Positions 45,437 through 55,993 of a stretch of 64,000 nt of DNA are shown here, one piece after another. The stretch is from Streptomyces sp. WMMC500 (GTDB lineage: Bacteria; Actinomycetota; Actinomycetes; Streptomycetales; Streptomycetaceae). The notes under the pieces are model-generated. The model did no database searches. It was given only the letters and a program-made list of their open reading frames with translations, and was not told the origin of the DNA. The position numbers and the translations under genes were made by a program. The stretch is from assembly GCF_027497195.1 (NCBI RefSeq), contig NZ_CP114905.1, positions 6,955,001 through 7,019,000 on the forward strand. Reading direction: 5' to 3'. How positions within the stretch are numbered: the stretch's first letter is position 1; every line of letters begins with the position of its first letter.

Positions 45437-46333
45437 ATGGGCGCGTCGTATTCCCGGGACCTTGCTCCCCGGCCAGCGGAGATTGCGAGGACTCTGCAGG
45501 ACCGGCGGACCCCCGTTTCCTCGACTGACACGGACGACGGTGAGAGACGTGCTCTCCCGCCGCCGCCCGGGCAGCGCCTGCGCGCCCTCCTCGACCGGAT
45601 GCGCTCGCCGCGCCCCCCGCGGCTGTGGTTCGAGATCATGCTCGTCGCGCTCGTCTACTGGACGTACTCGATAATCCGCAACGCCGTGCCCGAGCAGGAA
45701 GAGCAGGCGCTGAAGAACGCGGACCGCATCTGGAGCTTCCAGGAGGACCTGGGGCTGGCCTTCGAGCGGTCGCTCAACCACGCGGTCGACGGCGTCACCT
45801 GGCTCGTCGTGTCGATGAACTACTACTACGGCACGCTCCACTACGTCGTCACCATCGGCGTGCTCGTCTGGCTCTACCGCCGCCAGTCCGGCCGCTACGC
45901 CGCCGTGCGCCTCGCGCTCGCCGTGACGACCTGCTTCGCCCTCATCGGCTACTACAGCTTCCCGCTGGCGCCGCCGCGGCTGATGGAGGGCATGGACTTC
46001 ATCGACACCGTGCGGGTGCACGAGACCCTGGGCTCGATGTCGCAGGGCAACCTGGCCAACGTCTCCAACCAGTACGCGGCCATGCCCTCGATGCACGTGG
46101 GCTGGTCCGTGTGGGCGGGCATCACCATCGCCGTGCTGGCCAGGCCGCTGTGGGTGAAGGTGCTCGGCGTGCTCTACCCGACCCTGACGCTGCTGGTCAT
46201 CATGGCGACGGCGAACCACTTCTGGATGGACGCGGTGGGCGGGATCATCTGCCTGGCCTTCGGCTTCGCGGTCTCGTACGCCTGGTACGGGACGATCGCG
46301 TACCGGCTGCCGCAGAAGGTGGCCTCCCCCTAG
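45437..46333 (+). CDS. PAP2-superfamily phosphatase / inositolphosphotransferase-like
   Basis: 298 aa with six membrane helices after a charged N-terminus. The PAP2-type catalytic motifs are QYAAMPSMHVGWS and ATANHFWMDAVGG, with the phosphate-binding arginine region further upstream (FPLAPPRLMEG). The motif pattern fits the Ipt1/AUR1-like branch, which transfers inositol phosphate or hydrolyses lipid phosphates at the outer membrane face. It may act in inositol-lipid synthesis or undecaprenyl-PP recycling. The stop overlaps the convergent gene by 4 bases. Confidence 0.85.
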   Translation: MGASYSRDLAPRPAEIARTLQDRRTPVSSTDTDDGERRALPPPPGQRLRALLDRMRSPRPPRLWFEIMLVALVYWTYSIIRNAVPEQEEQALKNADRIWSFQEDLGLAFERSLNHAVDGVTWLVVSMNYYYGTLHYVVTIGVLVWLYRRQSGRYAAVRLALAVTTCFALIGYYSFPLAPPRLMEGMDFIDTVRVHETLGSMSQGNLANVSNQYAAMPSMHVGWSVWAGITIAVLARPLWVKVLGVLYPTLTLLVIMATANHFWMDAVGGIICLAFGFAVSYAWYGTIAYRLPQKVASP

Positions 46334-47052
46334 CGTCGCGGGCGAGGTCCGCGCGCCGTGGTGCGTCCGCGCGGGCCGTCGTCCTCCGTGTCCCGGGACC
46401 GGCGGCGGCGCAGGATCACGATCCCCGCGGTGCCGACGAGCAGCGCGGCGGCGGCGCTGCCGACCGCGTAGACCTTGTTCGAGGAGACCCAGGGCTCGGG
46501 GGACCACTCGTCGTCGGCGCTGGTGCAGGTGAGCCATTCCCCGCGGGTGCCGCCCTGGAAGCAGACCGTCGTGGCGGACGCGGGGGCGCCGTCGCGGGCG
46601 TCGTCCTCGGCGCCGGGGCGCCGCGGGGCGCGTACGCCATCGGAGGCGTCGGCCGGGTCGGCGGCGTCGGCGGCGTGCAGATCCCGGGCGTCCCTTTCGG
46701 TCCTGTCAGGAGCGGCGGTCACCGTCAGCACCCGGCTCGTGCCCGCCGGCAGGGTGATCCGCCACGTCACCTGCTGCCCGTTCGTCCTGGCCCGCGGGCT
46801 CGCGGACACGTACTCCAGGGATTCGGGGAGGAGCTGGGTGACCCGGCCGTGCGGCGCGTCCGCGCCGGAGGTGTTGCGGACGGTGATCGCGTACGTCGTG
46901 CCGCCGTCCGCCGCCGCCCGGCTCTCCAGCGCGATCCGGACCGGCGACGACGGCCCGGCGGGCGGGGGTGCGGCGGGGGAGAGCGGCGGGGAGGTGGCGA
47001 GGGACGCCAGCAGGCCGGCGACCGTCGCCGCGGAAGCGATCGCCGTACGCAT
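46330..47052 (-). CDS. cell-surface protein with DUF11-like domain and membrane anchor
   Basis: About 240 aa from the ATG at 47052. There is a signal peptide (RTAIASAATVAGLLASLATS), then a DUF11/Ig-like domain (GGTTYAITVRNTSGADAPHGRVTQLLPESLEYVSASP, TWRITLPAGTSRVLTVTAAP). An acidic linker rich in AD pairs follows, with a pair of cysteines (VCFQGGTRGEWLTC). A C-terminal membrane helix with a basic tail (AVGSAAAALLVGTAGIVILRRRR) ends the protein. It is an anchored surface protein. The start could also be 47073. Confidence 0.78.
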   Translation of the reverse strand: MRTAIASAATVAGLLASLATSPPLSPAAPPPAGPSSPVRIALESRAAADGGTTYAITVRNTSGADAPHGRVTQLLPESLEYVSASPRARTNGQQVTWRITLPAGTSRVLTVTAAPDRTERDARDLHAADAADPADASDGVRAPRRPGAEDDARDGAPASATTVCFQGGTRGEWLTCTSADDEWSPEPWVSSNKVYAVGSAAAALLVGTAGIVILRRRRSRDTEDDGPRGRTTARGPRPRR

Positions 47053-47274
47053 TCCTGCCACCTCGCTGTCCATGCTGCCCGGCCCGTGCGGACGGTCTAC
47101 CAGCGGGCGCCGTCGAGAAAAAGGGCAAATCGCACGAGCGAGGCGCCGATGCTACGAACGGCCCGCCGGAGCGTCGCCCCTTCGGAGGAACCGGCCGCGG
47201 CGGCGTCCGGGGCCGGCCTCCGGCGTCCGGCGGTCCCGGGCCCCCGGGTCCCGGTGGCCCCGGGCCCGGACGCG

Positions 47275-50200
47275 TCAGTCGCCGTAGAAGATCCGCTCCA
47301 CGACCGCCCGCGCCCGCCGCGTCGTCCGCCGGTACTCCTCCGGCAGCTCGCCGGCCTGCCCCGGGCCGTAGCCGAAGTAGCGTGCCACCGCGCCGAGTTC
47401 CCGCTCGGCGGCGGGGAAGGTGTCGCCGGGCCGGCCGCGTACCAGCATCACCGCGTTGCGCAGGCGCGTCGCCAGCAGCCAGGCGTCGTCCAGTATCCGC
47501 GCGTCGTCCGCGTCCAGCAGGCCCGCGCCGCGCGCCGCGGCCAGCGCCGCGCGGGTTCGGGTCGTCCGCAGCGCGGGCACCGCGCGCGCGTGCTGCAACT
47601 GCAGCAACTGCACCGTCCACTCCACGTCCGCGAGACCGCCGCGCCCCAGCTTCGCGTGCAGCGCCGGGTCCGCGCCGCGCGGCAGCCGCTCCGCCTCCAT
47701 GCGCGCCTTCAGCCGCCGGATCTCGCGTACGGCGTCCTCGTCGAGCCCGCCCGCCGGGTAGCGCAGCGGGTCGATCAGCTCCGTGAAGCGCGCCCCCAGC
47801 GCGGCGTCGCCCGCGACCGGCTCGGCGCGCAGCAGCGCGTGGCTCTCCCACGTCAGCGACCAGCGCCGGTAGTAGGCCGCGTACGACGCGAGGGTGCGCA
47901 CCAGCGGCCCCGACTTGCCCTCGGGCCGCAGGTCGGCGTCGACCAGCAGCGGCGGGTCGGCGCTGGGCAGTTGCAGCAGCCGGCGCAGCTCGTTGGCGAC
48001 GGCGAACGCCGCCGCGCCCGCCTCCTCGTCGGAGACGCCCGGGCGCGGCTCGTGCACGAAGAGCACGTCGGCGTCCGAGCCGTAGCCCAGCTCGTGCCCG
48101 CCGAAACGGCCCATGCCGATCACCGCGAACCGCGTCGGCAGCGTGTCGCCCCAGCGGGCGGCGGTCGCCGCGCGCAGCGCGCCGGCGACGGTGGCGGCGT
48201 TGAGGTCGCTGAGGGCGCCGCCGGTGCGGTCGACGGCGGCGGCGATCCGGGCGTGCTCGTCCCCGTCGTCTTCCCGCCCGTCACCGGCCTCCTCCCCGGC
48301 GAGCGCCGGGTGCGCCCCGTACGCCGTGATGAGGTCCGCCGCCGCGGTACGGAACAGCTCCCGCCGCCGCACTCCGCGGGCCGCCGCCACCGCCGCCTCC
48401 GGGGCCGAGTGCCGGCCCACGGCCGCCAGGATCTCCTGCTCCAGGTGCGCCCGCCCGCGCGGCCGCAGCCCCTGCTCGTCGCCGAGCAGCGCCACCGCCT
48501 CCGGCGCCCGCAGCAGCAGATCGGGCGCGAGCCTGCCCGAGGACAGCACCCGCGCCAGGTTCTCCGCCGCCGCGCCCTCGTCGCGCAGCAGCCGCAGGTA
48601 CCAGGGCGTGCTGCCCAGCGCGTCCGAGACCTTGCGGAAGTTGAGCAGCCCCGCGTCCGGGTCGGCCGAGTCGCCGAACCAGCCCAGCAGCACCGGCAGC
48701 AGCGTCCGCTGGATCGCCGCCTTCCGGCTCATCCCCGACGTCAGCGCCTCCAGGTGGCGCAGCGCCGCCGCCGGGTCCTCGTACCCGAGGGCGACCAGCC
48801 GCTCCCGGGCCGCGTCCGGGGTGAGCCGCACCTCCCCGGGCGCGAGCCGGGCGACGGCGTCGAGGAGCGGGCGGTAGAACAGCTTCTCGTGCAGCCGGCG
48901 CACCTCGAAGGAGTGCCGCCGCCACGCCTTGCGCAACTGCGACACCGGCTCGCCGCGGCCCTCGTCGGGCAGCAGCCGCACCAGCGAACGGCCGAGCGCG
49001 CGCAGTTCGTGCTCGTCCTCGGGCACCAGGTGCGTACGGCGCAGCTTCTGGAGCTGGATGCAGTGTTCCAGCGAGCGCAGGAAGCGGTACGCGGCGTCCA
49101 GCGCGGCGGCGTCGGCGCGGCCCACGTACCCGCCGTCGGCGAGCGCGGCCAGCGCGTCCAGGGTCGTGCCGCTGCGCAGCGAGGCGTCGGCGCGGCCGTG
49201 CACGAGCTGGAGCAACTGCACCGCGAACTCCACGTCCCGCAGCCCGCCCGGGCCCAGCTTCAGCTCCCGGTCGAGCTGCGCCGCCGGGATGTTCGCCACC
49301 ACCCGGCGGCGCATCTGCTGCACGTCCGGCACGAAGTTCGCGCGCTCCGCCGCCTGCCACACCATCGGCGCGATGGCCTCCGCGTACGCCGCGCCCAGCC
49401 CGGGGTCGCCCGCCACCGGGCGGGCCTTCAGCAGGGCCTGGAACTCCCAGGTCTTGGCCCAGCGCTGGTAGTACGCGAGGTGGGAGGAGAGGGTGCGCAC
49501 GAGGGGGCCGTTGCGGCCCTCGGGGCGGAGGTTCGCGTCGACCGGCCAGATGGTGCCCTCGGCGGTGGTGTCGGAGCAGACGCGCATGAGGCGGGCGGCG
49601 AGCCGGGTGGCGGCCTGCACGGCGGCGCGCTCGCGGGCCGGGTCGTCGCCCGGGCCCTCGTCGCGCGGCTCGGCGACGAAGATGACGTCGACGTCCGAGA
49701 CGTAGTTCAGCTCCCGCCCGCCGCACTTGCCCATCCCGATCACCGCAAGCCGGCACTGCGCCGCGTCCTCGGGCTGCTCCTCGGCCGCGATCTCCAGCGC
49801 CGCCCGCAGCGTCGCGGTCGCCAGGTCGGCCAGCTCCGCGGCGGCCTGCACCACGTCCGTCGTCCCGCACACGTCCCGGGCGGCGATCCCCAGCAGCGCC
49901 CGCCGGTACGCCACGCGCAGCGCGTCGGCCCGCGGCATCCCCGCGCCCCGCGCCCCCCACACGCCTTCGGCGAGCGCCCGCTCGAACTCCGAGGTCATCG
50001 GGTGCAGATCGACCGCCTCGTAGGTGGCCAGCGACTCCCAGTCGTCCGGATGCCGCGCCAGGTGGTCCCCCAGCGCCTCGGACGCGCCGAGCACCCCCAG
50101 CAGCCGGTCGCGCAGCGGCTTGGCGGCCACCAGCGTGTCGAGGAGCGCCTGCCGCCGCTCCGGCGCCAGCGCCTCCGCGAGCCGCACGAGCCCGAGCAGC

Positions 50201-50370
50201 GCCCGGTCGGGATCGGCGGTGCCGCCCAGCGCGTCGAGCAGCACCGGATCGTCCCGTACGCCGTCGAGCACCGGCGACTCCAGCAGCCGCCCGGCGTCGG
50301 CCGGTTCGCCGAACCCGTAGCGCAGCAGCCGGGTGAACGCGCTGCTCCTGCGCCCCTGCGGAACCGACAT
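47275..50370 (-). CDS. glnE: glutamine synthetase adenylyltransferase/deadenylase
   Basis: About 1031 aa, bifunctional. Two nucleotidyltransferase domains are visible through their GMG...GG...SD-x-D signatures: GMGKCGGRELNYVSDVDVIFV in the N-terminal (removase) half and GMGRFGGHELGYGSDADVLFV in the C-terminal (adenylylation) half. Each is followed by the DANLRPEGRNGPL / DADLRPEGKSGPL block and a helical GlnD-like regulatory part. It attaches or removes AMP on glutamine synthetase in response to nitrogen state. The ATG at 50370 follows GGGAGG; a GTG at 50400 is in frame. It lies close to a glnA2-like gene and glnII. Confidence 0.98.
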   Translation of the reverse strand: MSVPQGRRSSAFTRLLRYGFGEPADAGRLLESPVLDGVRDDPVLLDALGGTADPDRALLGLVRLAEALAPERRQALLDTLVAAKPLRDRLLGVLGASEALGDHLARHPDDWESLATYEAVDLHPMTSEFERALAEGVWGARGAGMPRADALRVAYRRALLGIAARDVCGTTDVVQAAAELADLATATLRAALEIAAEEQPEDAAQCRLAVIGMGKCGGRELNYVSDVDVIFVAEPRDEGPGDDPARERAAVQAATRLAARLMRVCSDTTAEGTIWPVDANLRPEGRNGPLVRTLSSHLAYYQRWAKTWEFQALLKARPVAGDPGLGAAYAEAIAPMVWQAAERANFVPDVQQMRRRVVANIPAAQLDRELKLGPGGLRDVEFAVQLLQLVHGRADASLRSGTTLDALAALADGGYVGRADAAALDAAYRFLRSLEHCIQLQKLRRTHLVPEDEHELRALGRSLVRLLPDEGRGEPVSQLRKAWRRHSFEVRRLHEKLFYRPLLDAVARLAPGEVRLTPDAARERLVALGYEDPAAALRHLEALTSGMSRKAAIQRTLLPVLLGWFGDSADPDAGLLNFRKVSDALGSTPWYLRLLRDEGAAAENLARVLSSGRLAPDLLLRAPEAVALLGDEQGLRPRGRAHLEQEILAAVGRHSAPEAAVAAARGVRRRELFRTAAADLITAYGAHPALAGEEAGDGREDDGDEHARIAAAVDRTGGALSDLNAATVAGALRAATAARWGDTLPTRFAVIGMGRFGGHELGYGSDADVLFVHEPRPGVSDEEAGAAAFAVANELRRLLQLPSADPPLLVDADLRPEGKSGPLVRTLASYAAYYRRWSLTWESHALLRAEPVAGDAALGARFTELIDPLRYPAGGLDEDAVREIRRLKARMEAERLPRGADPALHAKLGRGGLADVEWTVQLLQLQHARAVPALRTTRTRAALAAARGAGLLDADDARILDDAWLLATRLRNAVMLVRGRPGDTFPAAERELGAVARYFGYGPGQAGELPEEYRRTTRRARAVVERIFYGD

Positions 50371-50480
50371 CGCGCGCACCGCCTCCCGTCCCGTGATCAC
50401 GCCGGGCTACGAGCTTACGACGAGGGGCCCGCGGCCGGGACGGCCACGGGGGCCGGCGGGGGCGGGTGCCTTCCGCGCGC

Positions 50481-51458
50481 TCACGCCAGCGCGATCAGCC
50501 CGATCGCCGCCCCCGCGCACACCAGCCCGGCCGACTGCGGCAGGGTCAGCCGCTCGCGGAGCACGAGCAGGGCCAGCAGCACGGGGATCGCCGGGTACAG
50601 CGAGGCGAGCACGGTGGCGACGGCCATCAACTCCGCACGGGCCGCGTAGAGGTAGAGGACGGTCGCGAGGGTGCCGAGCACGCCGGCGACGGCCACGTGC
50701 GGCGCGCAGCGCCGGGGCAGCACCCACGGTGCCCGGTCCCCCAGCACCGCGACGGCGACGACGGCGACCGACACGGCTCGGCTGACGGTGACGGCCCACA
50801 GGTCGCCTCCCCCGCCGGCTACGCCCTCATTGGCGGGCAGGCGGGCGAGGGCGATGAAGTGGGTGGCGAACCCGGCCCCGGCGATCAGCGCGTCCACCGA
50901 GGGGGATCCGCGCCGCCGGGGGTACGCCGCGGGCCGGGAGGGCCCGTGTGCGCCGCGGTCCGGCTCCGGTGCGTACCGCCGCGGCGGCCCGGGACTCCGC
51001 CGGCCCTCGCCGCCGTCCTGCCCGTCCGGGCCGCGTGAGACCAGCCACAGGGCGGGGAACGCCGCGGCGATGCCCGCGAGGGCGGCGGCGGCAGGGCGTT
51101 CGCCGAGCAGGCTGATGCCGAGGACGACCGGGACGGCCACCGCGGTCACGTCGCTGACCGGCACCACGACGCTCATCGCCCCCGTCGTCAGCGCGCGGTA
51201 GAGGAACGCCACCCCCACGCCGGTGCCCACCCCGGACAACGCGCCCCAGCCCAGCCCGGCCGCGTCCGGGGCGCCCGCGGCCGGTATCGCCAGGGCGGCG
51301 GTCACGCTCACCACCGTGCCGCACACCTGCGCGTACAGCGCGACCGTGACCCCGGCCGTGCGCCGGGCGGCGAGCCCGGCCGCGAAGTGCGTGAGCCCGA
51401 AGCTGACGGCGGACGACAGCGCGAGCAGCTCACCCACCGCGACCACCCTGCCCGGCAC
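50481..51458 (-). CDS. EamA-family (DMT) transporter
   Basis: 325 aa, ten predicted helices in two five-helix EamA repeats (VGELLALSSAVSFGLTHFAAGLAA and the TVLYLYAARAELMAVATVLASLYPAIPVLLALLVLRERL block). There is a charged, low-complexity insertion of about 45 residues (RGPDGQDGGEGRRSPGPPRRY...) between the repeats. These proteins export metabolites or drugs. The GTG at 51458 overlaps the upstream marR-type gene by 29 bases; an in-frame GTG at 51437 is an alternative. The MarR-type regulator probably controls it. Confidence 0.88.
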   Translation of the reverse strand: MPGRVVAVGELLALSSAVSFGLTHFAAGLAARRTAGVTVALYAQVCGTVVSVTAALAIPAAGAPDAAGLGWGALSGVGTGVGVAFLYRALTTGAMSVVVPVSDVTAVAVPVVLGISLLGERPAAAALAGIAAAFPALWLVSRGPDGQDGGEGRRSPGPPRRYAPEPDRGAHGPSRPAAYPRRRGSPSVDALIAGAGFATHFIALARLPANEGVAGGGGDLWAVTVSRAVSVAVVAVAVLGDRAPWVLPRRCAPHVAVAGVLGTLATVLYLYAARAELMAVATVLASLYPAIPVLLALLVLRERLTLPQSAGLVCAGAAIGLIALA

Positions 51459-52056: not shown

Positions 52057-52737
52057 TCAACCGCTGGCCCGCAGGATCCCTTCCTCCACCAGGGCCGCGG
52101 CGAGCTCCACCTTCTCGTCGTCGCTCAGGTTGCCCGCCAGCTCGCGCACGTAGAAGGCGCCGGTACGGGCGACGAACTCCAGTGCGTCGGCGGCGACGTC
52201 GTTCACGCTGATCAGGATCTCACCGTCCGGCGCGAGCAGATGGACCTCGCTTCTCTCCACCCGGACGCCTTGTCGCCCCGCCTGCTCGTTGACGAGCCGG
52301 CGCCGCAACGTCAGAATCCGGCCGTCATACCAGACATCGGGCAGTTCTTCGCCGAACATGTCCTCGTACTGGTCCTTGAACTCCCCGAACGAAGCCGTGG
52401 GGCGCTCCGGCGGGGCACCCTTCGCCGGCGCCGGCACGGGTGCGTTGCTGGGCGCGTGATGGACGTAGCGGCCGAAGAAACGCTCGCAGAATTCCTGGTA
52501 CTGCACCGTGAAGAGAATGAACTGGTGCCATGCCTCGTCGATCCGAAGCGAGTGCATCCGCCAGGACCGCCCGGGATGCTCGTGCACCAGCACGCAGTAC
52601 CGTTTGACCTCCCTGTAGAGCAGCTCCGCCTCTGCCGGCGAATCGACGATCTTCTCTTTGAGCAGCTTCTCGATCAGGTAGGGCGCCGGATGGTCCACCG
52701 CTGCGGACCGCCGGTCGGTCCGCAGGCTCAGAGCCAC
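52057..52737 (-). CDS. glycine-rich-domain-like protein (PF07173 type)
   Basis: 226 aa. The N-terminal half carries the conserved block found in GRDP/DUF1399 proteins: YREVKRYCVLVHEHPGRSWRMHSLRIDEAWHQFILFTVQYQEFCERFFGRYVHH. It has invariant-looking H, D, WH and FC residues that suggest a metal or ligand site. The C-terminal half is beta-rich, with RILTLRRRLVNEQ and EILISVNDVAADALEFVARTGAFYVRELAGNLSDDEK. The family's biochemical role is unknown. The GTG start follows GGAG and lies 3 bases after the Cys-rich gene's stop, so the two are certainly coupled. Confidence 0.75.
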   Translation of the reverse strand: MALSLRTDRRSAAVDHPAPYLIEKLLKEKIVDSPAEAELLYREVKRYCVLVHEHPGRSWRMHSLRIDEAWHQFILFTVQYQEFCERFFGRYVHHAPSNAPVPAPAKGAPPERPTASFGEFKDQYEDMFGEELPDVWYDGRILTLRRRLVNEQAGRQGVRVERSEVHLLAPDGEILISVNDVAADALEFVARTGAFYVRELAGNLSDDEKVELAAALVEEGILRASG

Positions 52738-52740
52738 CGT

Positions 52741-53223
52741 CTACTCCGGTGGAGACGTGCAGATGCCGCACGGGCTGTGGCAAGGCTGGCAGGGTGAATG
52801 GCAGTCCTCTGCGGACTCGGGGCGCTGCCGCCGGGTGATGCGCAGCCGACCTTCCGACGGCAGGGGAGCGGTCACGCCGTAGACGTCGGCCGCGCTCTCC
52901 TGACGGCGTTGGGTGGCCGCGCCGTAGACGTCGGCGACGCTCTCCTGACGGTGCCGGACGACAGCGGCATCGGAATCGAGCCAGAGCACGGACCCGCCGA
53001 AAGGCAGCAGATGCGCCGGGGCCTCTTCGACGTGCAGAACGTCTGCTCGGCGGATCTCGACGCACTGCGAGAGGTCGTAGAGGTTCGCGTACAGCCGGAT
53101 GTGGTCACTGCTGTTCGCCGAACCAACGTAGCCGCAGAACATCTTCGCTTTCGGCGCGTGTGGCTGCAGGATGCGCAGGAGCGGATGCTCCGGAACGGAC
53201 GTACCGGCTTTGTTGGTCGCCAA
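52741..53223 (-). CDS. Cys-rich hypothetical protein with internal duplication
   Basis: 160 aa. The start is a TTG at 53223 behind AAGGAAG. The N-terminal half looks like a folded domain (MFCGYVGSANSSDHIRLYANLYDLSQCVEIRR, VLHVEEAPAHLLPFGGSVLWLDSDAAV). A 15-residue unit (QESVADVYG / QESAADVYG) is then repeated in tandem, matching a 45-bp DNA repeat. The C-terminus is a short cysteine-rich tail with repeated HSPC (EDCHSPCQPCHSPCGICTSP): five cysteines and two histidines in 15 residues. That could bind metal or be a modified peptide segment. No family is recognised. It is coupled to the downstream gene and near a methyltransferase gene. Confidence 0.7.
   Translation of the reverse strand: MATNKAGTSVPEHPLLRILQPHAPKAKMFCGYVGSANSSDHIRLYANLYDLSQCVEIRRADVLHVEEAPAHLLPFGGSVLWLDSDAAVVRHRQESVADVYGAATQRRQESAADVYGVTAPLPSEGRLRITRRQRPESAEDCHSPCQPCHSPCGICTSPPE
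52876..52965. repeat. 45-bp in-frame tandem duplication
   Basis: Two copies of a 45-base unit, 52876-52920 and 52921-52965, share GCCGTAGACGTCGGC and CGCTCTCCTGACGG. They encode the duplicated QESxADVYG segment of the Cys-rich protein. The high identity at synonymous sites suggests a recent event. Confidence 0.7.
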
Positions 53224-53351
53224 CGTTCTTCCTTCTCTCTGGTTCCACGGGGCTCATGGAAGTCCCGACCGTAGGACCGCAACCGCGAACTCCGCCGACG
53301 ACGCCACTGGACCGTCAGCCGATTTCAGTAAGCGGCACCGCCACTCGCGCC

Positions 53352-54083
53352 TCACAGATGCCGGACGGCGGGCCGCGTGGCGCGGATGATGCGGGTGGTC
53401 ATCGGGAGCCCGCGACCGCGACCGGCGTCGTGGACGGTTTCCACGTCGACGACATCCAGGCCGGCCTGCGCGAGCAGCCGTTCCCACAGCGGGAGGTCCA
53501 GGACCCACCGCTCAAGCGTCACCGGAGTCCCGTCGGTCAGGACGGTGGGCAGTCGGGCGGAACGAACCGACCTCTCGGCGGCCTCGCCGTTGCGATAGTG
53601 GCCCAGAGTGGAGAACACCAGCATCCCGCCCGGCCGAAGGCTCGCGGCGACGGCCGGGAGGAGACGGCGGGGATCGGTGAAGTCCAGGGCGCCGAAGACG
53701 CTGTAGACGAGGTCGAAGGCGGAGGGACGCTCGGCGAGGTGGGAGGCGGCCTCAGCGAGGACCGCGCGGAGCCGCGGCACGTCACCGTACGACCGGCGGC
53801 AGCGCTCGTACATGGAAGCGGACGAGTCCAGCGCGGTCACTTCGGAGGCGGTGCTGCTCCGGGCAAGGTGGGCGGCTTGGCGTCCGGTGCCGGCACCCAC
53901 CTCGATGACGGCGATGCCGTCAAGGGAGCCGAGGATCTCGGCACCCGGCCCGTTGCGCTGGTACCAGTCCCAGTGGAAGGTACCGTCCACCCCCGCAGCT
54001 CTGTCGGCCCGGGCCCGGCGGGCGCCGTAGCACTGCCAGAGGTCGGGGCCGGTGTCCCGCGAGGGTGGTGTCACGGGGCTCAT
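53352..54083 (-). CDS. class I SAM-dependent methyltransferase
   Basis: About 243 aa from the ATG at 54083. The SAM-binding motif I is IAVIEVGAGTGRQAAHLA and the acidic post-I residue is in VTALDSSASMYERC. Motif post-II is FDLVYSVFGALDFTDP, and motif III contains SLRPGGMLVFSTLGHYRNG. The remaining C-terminal part has beta strands typical of small-molecule methyltransferases. A long in-frame N-terminal extension starting at 54155 is unlikely. It is in the same direction as, and 128 bases before, the Cys-rich gene, which suggests but does not prove a shared role. Confidence 0.88.
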   Translation of the reverse strand: MSPVTPPSRDTGPDLWQCYGARRARADRAAGVDGTFHWDWYQRNGPGAEILGSLDGIAVIEVGAGTGRQAAHLARSSTASEVTALDSSASMYERCRRSYGDVPRLRAVLAEAASHLAERPSAFDLVYSVFGALDFTDPRRLLPAVAASLRPGGMLVFSTLGHYRNGEAAERSVRSARLPTVLTDGTPVTLERWVLDLPLWERLLAQAGLDVVDVETVHDAGRGRGLPMTTRIIRATRPAVRHL

Positions 54084-54258: not shown

Positions 54259-55620
54259 CTACAGCACCGGGAGGCTCTTGCGCAGCTCGAAGGCCGTGAC
54301 CTCCGAGCGGTACTCCTCCCACTCCTGCTTCTTGTTGCGCAGGAAGAAGTCGAAGACGTGCTCGCCGAGCGTCTCCGCGCAGATCTCGCTGCGCTCCATC
54401 AGCCCGATCGCCTCGCCGAGGTTCTGCGGCAGCGGCTCGATGCCCATCGCGCGACGCTCCGCGTCCGTCAGCGCCCACACGTCGTCCTCGGCGCCCGGCG
54501 GCAGCTCGTAGCTCTCCTCGATGCCCTTCAGGCCCGCGGCCAGGAGCATCGCGTACGCCAGGTAGGGGTTGCAGCCGGAGTCGAGGGAGCGGACCTCGAT
54601 GCGGGTGGAGCCCGTCTTGCCCGGCTTGTAGAGGGGGACGCGGACGAGCGCGGAGCGGTTGTTGTGGCCCCAGCAGATGTACGACGGCGCCTCACCGCCC
54701 GCCCCCGCGGTGCGCTGCGAGCCGCCCCAGATGCGCTTGTACGAGTTCACCCACTGGTTCGTCACCGCGGACACCTCCGCGGCGTGCCGCAGCAGCCCGG
54801 CGATGAAGGAGCGGCCGACCTTCGAGAGCTGGAACTCCGAGCCCGACTCGTGGAAGGCGTTGCGGTCGCCCTCGAAAAGTGACAGGTGCGTGTGCATCCC
54901 GGAGCCCGGGTACTCCGAGAACGGCTTGGGCATGAACGTCGCCTGCACGCCCTGCTCCAGCGCCACCTGCTTCATGATCAGCCGGAAGGTCATGATGTTG
55001 TCTGCGGTGGCCAGCGCGTCCGCGTAGCGCAGGTCGATCTCCTGCTGTCCGGGCGCGCCCTCGTGGTGCGAGAACTCGACCGAGATGCCCATCGACTCCA
55101 GCATCGTGATCGCCTGCCGGCGGAAGTCCATGCCGATGTTCTGCGGGGTGTGGTCGAAGTAGCCCGAGTTGTCCGCGGGCACCGGGCGGCTGCCGTCGAC
55201 CGGCTTCTCGTTCAGGAGGAAGAACTCGATCTCGGGGTGGGTGTAGAAGGTGAAGCCCAGGTCGGAGGTCTTGGCGAGGATCCGCTTCAGCACGTACCGC
55301 GGATCGGCGAAGGACGGCGAGCCGCCGGGCATGAGGATGTCGCAGAACATCCGCGCCGTGCCGGGGGTCTCCGCTCGCCAGGGCAGCACCTGGAAGGTGG
55401 CGGGGTCGGGCTTGGCGAGCATGTCGGACTCGTGCACCCGGGCGAAGCCCTCGATGGCGGAGCCGTCGAAGCCGATGCCCTCGTCGAACGCCTGCTCAAG
55501 CTCGGCGGGGGCGACGGCGACGGACTTCAGGAAGCCCAGCACGTCGGTGAACCACAGCCGCACGAACCGGATGTCGCGCTCCTCCAGGGTCCGGAGCACG
55601 AACTCCTGCTGCTTCTCCAT
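54259..55620 (-). CDS. glnA2: glutamine synthetase-like ligase (GlnA2 type)
   Basis: 453 aa, GS type I fold. The substrate motif DGSAIEGFARVHESDM, catalytic metal-site residues in HPEIEFFLL, GSGMHTHLSLF (usual GS: GSGMHxHxS) and RIEVRSLDSGCNPYLAYAMLLAAG are present. The Tyr of the adenylylation loop is replaced: the segment reads EDDVWALTDAER with Trp at residue 382, so it should not be adenylylated by GlnE. Position next to glnE matches the glnA2 of Streptomyces coelicolor and Mycobacterium. The S. coelicolor GlnA2 has been described as a gamma-glutamylpolyamine synthetase rather than a true glutamine synthetase. ATG at 55620 follows GCGAGG. Confidence 0.93.
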   Translation of the reverse strand: MEKQQEFVLRTLEERDIRFVRLWFTDVLGFLKSVAVAPAELEQAFDEGIGFDGSAIEGFARVHESDMLAKPDPATFQVLPWRAETPGTARMFCDILMPGGSPSFADPRYVLKRILAKTSDLGFTFYTHPEIEFFLLNEKPVDGSRPVPADNSGYFDHTPQNIGMDFRRQAITMLESMGISVEFSHHEGAPGQQEIDLRYADALATADNIMTFRLIMKQVALEQGVQATFMPKPFSEYPGSGMHTHLSLFEGDRNAFHESGSEFQLSKVGRSFIAGLLRHAAEVSAVTNQWVNSYKRIWGGSQRTAGAGGEAPSYICWGHNNRSALVRVPLYKPGKTGSTRIEVRSLDSGCNPYLAYAMLLAAGLKGIEESYELPPGAEDDVWALTDAERRAMGIEPLPQNLGEAIGLMERSEICAETLGEHVFDFFLRNKKQEWEEYRSEVTAFELRKSLPVL

Positions 55621-55993
55621 GGTCCACATCCTCGCAGGTGACTCGGTGGCGCGGGCGCGAGCCCTCAGTATCACGGTAGGGAGTTTCCGCCGCGTTTCGC
55701 ACCCCGCGGGTGCAGGTGCGTGCGGCGGGGCGGGTGTGGCTGGGGGTACGGGTGTGAGCCGGGGGGTGTGACGTGGGGGGCGCGTGGTCACGTGCGTTGC
55801 GGCGGCGGGGCTGGTGGGGCCGGGTACGGGGCCGATCAGGTGCGGCGTGCGTGGGGCGGGAGTGGTGTGGCTGCGGGGCGGGGGTGTGGCGTGGGGGTGG
55901 GGTCGCGTGTGCTGCTGCGGCGGGGCGGTGGGGGGCTGTGGTCGGTTCCGCGTGCGTGCGGTGGCGCCGTCCGTGGGTTTCCGCGGGGCCGGG
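55621..55993. other. G-rich intergenic stretch
   Basis: About 300 bases (55680-55985) have a very strong G-over-C excess on the + strand, with runs of 4-6 G separated by T-rich dinucleotides (GTG, TGG). Several groups of G runs could form G-quadruplexes. No gene is supportable. It includes the promoter region of the glnA2-like gene on the minus strand near 55621-55680. Confidence 0.55.

Follow-up and report, generated by a model that had tools for sequence, protein, structure and literature searches.

Systems that make ribosomally synthesised and post-translationally modified peptides (RiPPs) with enzymes bearing RiPP recognition elements (RREs) contain a small gene, whose product combines a conserved N-terminal part with a variable, heteroatom-rich tail, and its neighbours encode a protein whose winged helix resembles an RRE, as well as tailoring-type enzymes. 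Here, we analysed a 64,000-nucleotide stretch of the Streptomyces sp. WMMC500 genome (NZ_CP114905.1, positions 6,955,001 to 7,019,000; ‘the window’), in which three minus-strand genes resemble such an arrangement. They encode a protein with a cysteine-rich tail (Cys-tail protein), a 226-aa protein joining a GRDP-type domain to a winged helix (GRDP-wH protein) and a class I S-adenosylmethionine (SAM)-dependent methyltransferase. Unlike in RiPP systems, the proposed leader is a folded beta-domain without a clear fold match in the Protein Data Bank (PDB), neighbouring genes for a leader protease or for peptide export were not recognised, and neither of the two small proteins exceeded a Pfam or NCBIfam cut-off (no match up to E 0.1). 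Bufferins and other MNIO-modified Cys-rich RiPPs provide a further parallel, as they combine a Cys-rich precursor with modifying genes as well; in contrast to bufferin systems, none of the five window proteins scanned matched the MNIO family. A RiPP-like, apparently undescribed maturation cassette, to which we assign a probability of roughly 50%, explains the set best: the carrier is conserved and its Cys/Ser tail variable, two different partner proteins share the winged helix, and the accompanying SAM- or oxygenase-type enzymes change.

The Cys-tail protein (160 aa, 52741-53223) starts with TTG a few bases after GAAGGA, and its homologue P0002 shares the first residues MATN. Its tail at residues 141-155 (CHSPCQPCHSPCGIC; 52759-52803), the proposed core, contains five Cys and two His within 15 residues, exactly as the original prediction had it. 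The 15-residue tandem duplication described there is likewise present in the linker (52870-52959), where two 45-nt copies (52870-52914 and 52915-52959) are 80% identical, and is a local feature found in P0002-P0004 and absent from P0005-P0010 (alignment A1). The first search yielded ten proteins including the query, with all five tail Cys invariant in 10/10 (A1), and a profile search led to 34 proteins, these ten included, with Streptomyces, Kitasatospora and Streptosporangium as named sources (alignments A1, A5 and A6). At least one CxSxC motif was found in the tail of 31 of the 34, mostly behind the conserved N-terminal domain; it is absent from P0150, P0152 (a 99-aa piece) and P0153, while P0154 is apparently out of frame at its start and P0005 lacks the first residues. 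Throughout the family, about 95 N-terminal residues are conserved and the C-terminal end is variable yet in register, with tails such as CQSRCNTCQSRCSVCQS, CTSRCQVCTSRCQVCTSRC, CSSPCSTCHSECGVCQSTC and CFSTCMDCLSWCSCSICSS. In alignment A6, which served as input for later searches and the model and omits P0003-P0005, P0150 and P0152-P0154, the serines of the CxS motifs are conserved about as well as the Cys residues (S143 and S150 near-invariant, S157 invariant). Judged from the invariant Cys residues in A1 and the recurring CxSxC motif, the tail is thus not a product of chance, and the conservation on which the original prediction had made any system depend was observed. The AlphaFold model consists of a helix and six strands predicted with high confidence (N-terminal domain pLDDT block means 88-96; conserved beta-domain at residues 12-92, 52948-53190), followed by a low-confidence tail. 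A conserved leader-type part with a variable core-type tail is the anatomy of a precursor, which is the role that the protein may have.

The second gene of the set follows after only three bases, as stated in the original prediction, and encodes the GRDP-wH protein (52057-52737, GTG start). The Cys-tail profile matched four of 392 Streptomyces genomes (G000, G033, G067 and G259), and full-length GRDP-wH matches (E below 1e-100) were found in the same four of 392, in each case near the Cys-tail gene. By our own arithmetic, hitting the same four genomes has a chance of about 1 in 10^9 if both genes were independent, ignoring kinship. The two genes are adjacent in the window and in G033 (locus L001), while a single gene lies between them in G259, in G067 and on a Streptomyces sp. 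NBC_01136 plasmid; one locus is located on a linear plasmid. Further candidate pairs, linked indirectly by contigs of equal length, include P0146 with P0038 and P0007 with P0013. On these genomic grounds, the pairing of Cys-tail and GRDP-wH genes is real. Of the three-gene co-occurrence originally proposed, this pair held up, whereas the strict three-gene version failed, because a relative of the window methyltransferase was not found at the loci L059, L060 and L056 and L001 carries one of another subfamily. The rare and patchy occurrence, including a linear plasmid, could also be expected of a toxin-antitoxin or defence module; however, the sole PADLOC match was that of the methyltransferase to part of mad2 (E 1.4e-13) and the GRDP-wH protein had no phage-record match at E 1e-5, so that we regard such a module as highly improbable. 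A frameshift interrupts the Cys-tail gene of G067 (L005, 1381-1935).

The predicted structure of the GRDP-wH protein (mean pLDDT 93.5) comprises a helical domain, in which Asp and His residues are conserved, joined to a C-terminal winged helix (residues 142-226, 52060-52314) that is similar to its counterpart in ribosomal oxygenases and, to a lesser degree, to RREs. Compared with the JmjC-type ribosomal oxygenases MINA53, NO66 and YcfD, a GRDP-type helical domain takes the place of the JmjC oxygenase. The protein shares the VDxxWHxFIL...YxxFC...HHxP motif with GRDP proteins. The ‘PF07173-like’ label given to it initially could not be upheld: a Pfam scan opened to E 10, with filters dropping most matches above about 0.1, gave one sub-threshold match, which was not PF07173. 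We found 534 related proteins, with Nonomuraea, Streptosporangium, Sinorhizobium and Mesorhizobium among the named sources outside Streptomyces; to the best 120 of these proteins, the protein database assigns PF27765, and several relatives are named ‘glycine-rich domain-containing protein’ by NCBI. The GRDP-wH profile matches 213 of 392 Streptomyces genomes, mostly over the GRDP part, and none of the four such Streptomyces proteins scanned reached the cut-off of a Pfam or NCBIfam family.

In the GRDP domain, one Asp and two His are kept in 74/74, 74/74 and 73/74 sequences, as expected for a metal site. This conservation also speaks for the main rival to a RiPP-like cassette, namely that the tail stays unmodified and works as a metal-binding or redox module (Zn, Cu or Fe-S), for which the GRDP-wH protein acts as chaperone or metal loader, while the methyltransferase acts elsewhere. 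Such a function would further fit the CxxCHxxC motif, which occurs in the separate tail (CQPCHSPC) as well as in tails of Streptomyces GRDP proteins (CSQCHAGC). However, metal binding does not demand serines conserved about like the Cys residues, many members of the wider Cys-tail family do not share the CxxCH His, and several kinds of SAM- or oxygenase-type genes go with the tails. Taken together, we consider a purely metal- or redox-active tail unlikely, albeit far less so than a defence module.

The methyltransferase gene (243 aa, 53352-54083, ATG at 54083; Pfam Methyltransf_25, E 1.3e-14) lies 128 bp upstream of the Cys-tail gene on the same strand. All three open reading frames (ORFs) were found where originally reported. 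The set is flanked by genes which, judging by their sequence, we take to be glnA (54259-55791) and glnE (47275-50400), and is followed by MarR and EamA genes, the EamA-family transporter gene being two genes downstream. Given this slot for accessory genes and the 128-bp gap, the Cys-tail and GRDP-wH genes might form a true two-gene unit with the methyltransferase as an unrelated neighbour, a situation that would fit both views of the tail. Relatives of the enzyme at E 1e-25 or better occur in 32 of 61 Streptomyces genomes, its own included, and presence alone thus means little; no relative was found in the 16-kb stretches around L059, L060 and L056 (three of five loci). The promoter/terminator scan returned no minus-strand promoters or terminators and therefore does not decide on the linkage.

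Other observations argue for a connection. Taking the best partial match of each genome, we fetched 26 Streptomyces loci for the GRDP part alone. Of these, 15 contained a methyltransferase relative no more than about 1.5 kb away, including a partial one and one fused to the GRDP gene, and 22 of the 26 GRDP ORFs had at least three Cys in their last 40 residues, with tails such as CSQCHAGCSDSP. In contrast to these 22 proteins, the window type ends in a winged helix and has its tail on a separate protein. In 146,364 bases of other DNA, a non-random sample made up of the window and five loci, the search matched the methyltransferase gene of the window alone. When 20 loci were fetched by methyltransferase instead, three contained a GRDP gene, with the tails CTPCRPGEDGH, CGPCHPGNDSH and CAPCHPGSDSH. 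A subfamily tree places all three GRDP-linked enzymes with the window enzyme in a clade of seven (support 99/98), in which three of the six relatives hence adjoin Cys-tailed GRDP genes and the other three stand alone, including L078, the nearest to the window enzyme. In G051, a GRDP-methyltransferase pair occupies the same slot as in the window, flanked by relatives of glnE (76% identical) and glnA (92%), which was the case in 1 of 28 loci checked, and the L001 methyltransferase, although of another subfamily, overlaps the GRDP-wH stop by four bases. As the subfamily is often, albeit not always, found beside Cys-tailed GRDP genes, the presence of the window methyltransferase is probably not accidental; its link is weaker than the pairing of the other two genes, and an unrelated neighbour remains a serious contender that we place somewhat short of even odds. 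The enzyme scored 40.6 bits against the daptide methyltransferase model NF041820, far below the curated cut-off of 175. An ORF in G282 fuses GRDP and methyltransferase parts without a Cys tail (L035, 760-1830). Antisense to the glnE-like gene, a plus-strand ORF of 1674 aa (window 45625-50649) looks like a high-GC artefact.

At L056, L059 (L004) and L060 (L005), where no relative of the window methyltransferase was found, the gene between the pair encodes a protein ending in the same winged helix as the GRDP-wH protein. Its front half shows an HxH...H pattern like that of cysteine dioxygenase-like enzymes. As a single sequence it weakly matched 3-mercaptopropionate dioxygenase (E 0.25 and 0.34), a three-row profile gave no such match, and no Pfam family was matched. 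We tentatively consider the protein to be thiol dioxygenase-like.

If the set is indeed a RiPP-like maturation cassette, the 160-aa protein would be the precursor, with its folded N-terminal beta-domain serving recognition as leader or carrier and its Cys/Ser tail as the substrate. The winged helix of the GRDP-wH protein would hold the precursor as RRE domains do, the GRDP domain with its near-invariant Asp/His/His would perform or scaffold a metal-dependent step, and the methyltransferase would put methyl groups on the Cys tail. We infer this precursor-enzyme relation, the leader binding, the tail methylation and any other chemistry from gene content; related gene sets elsewhere suggest that the tail may be chemically modified after synthesis. 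Some findings limit this reading. The RRE likeness of the winged helix is weak, and neither a leader protease nor a peptide exporter was recognised by eye near the window genes or in L001, L056, L059 or L060, where most neighbours were not family-scanned. The missing methyltransferase relatives at three of five loci and the other subfamily at L001 speak against a fixed role of that enzyme. The A6 profile, which matched 2 of 296 genomes at class level and 4 of 249 at family level, revealed two new, more distant family-level relatives (G1093 and G1197), which align over the N-terminal domain only and come without a full-length GRDP-wH partner gene; the G1093 protein has an unrelated C-terminal end. 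At L067 (7953-8381), a distant N-domain relative in another genus of the family shows an unrelated end, KWHLECDQDEGGRYCWPEPGEE.

GRDP genes were also found in other company. Judged by eye, their usual neighbours are XRE-type regulators, one family of which occurs at 11 and another at 9 of 28 loci, and an ATPase family (6 of 28). In G217 (L115, 3764-6143), a radical SAM gene and a gene for a 158-aa protein precede a GRDP gene with the Cys tail CSQCHSGCSDSNYAGK, the only radical SAM case in a Cys-motif scan of the 28 loci. At L015 (1915-2292) and L012 (934-1311), similar 125-aa proteins are encoded downstream of GRDP genes with CNPPACC tails; for the L015 copy, neither Pfam nor NCBIfam gave a match at E 0.01. 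E. coli plasmids, represented by 23 records of mostly about 7.9 kb (one of them read), encode a GRDP protein with the tail CGCSGKGCGAGCSCNSR; at L057 (376-3601), its gene is accompanied by genes for an ABC transporter and a JmjC_2 cupin, which may make up a sister system carried by a small mobilizable plasmid. One might go further and propose that GRDP-type domains and the new beta-domain are two interchangeable carriers of Cys/Ser tails in a candidate undescribed, widespread family of ribosomal peptides, with methyltransferase, thiol-dioxygenase-like, JmjC or radical SAM tailoring being swapped and the winged helix of ribosomal oxygenases acting as recognition domain, an extension that we ourselves hold to be rather doubtful. 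A maturation cassette of the kind proposed here would for the first time give bacterial GRDP-type domains a function open to testing. It would moreover connect the ribosomal oxygenase winged helix with the recognition of peptides and contribute a family of Cys-tail precursors whose leader domain has no clear PDB match.
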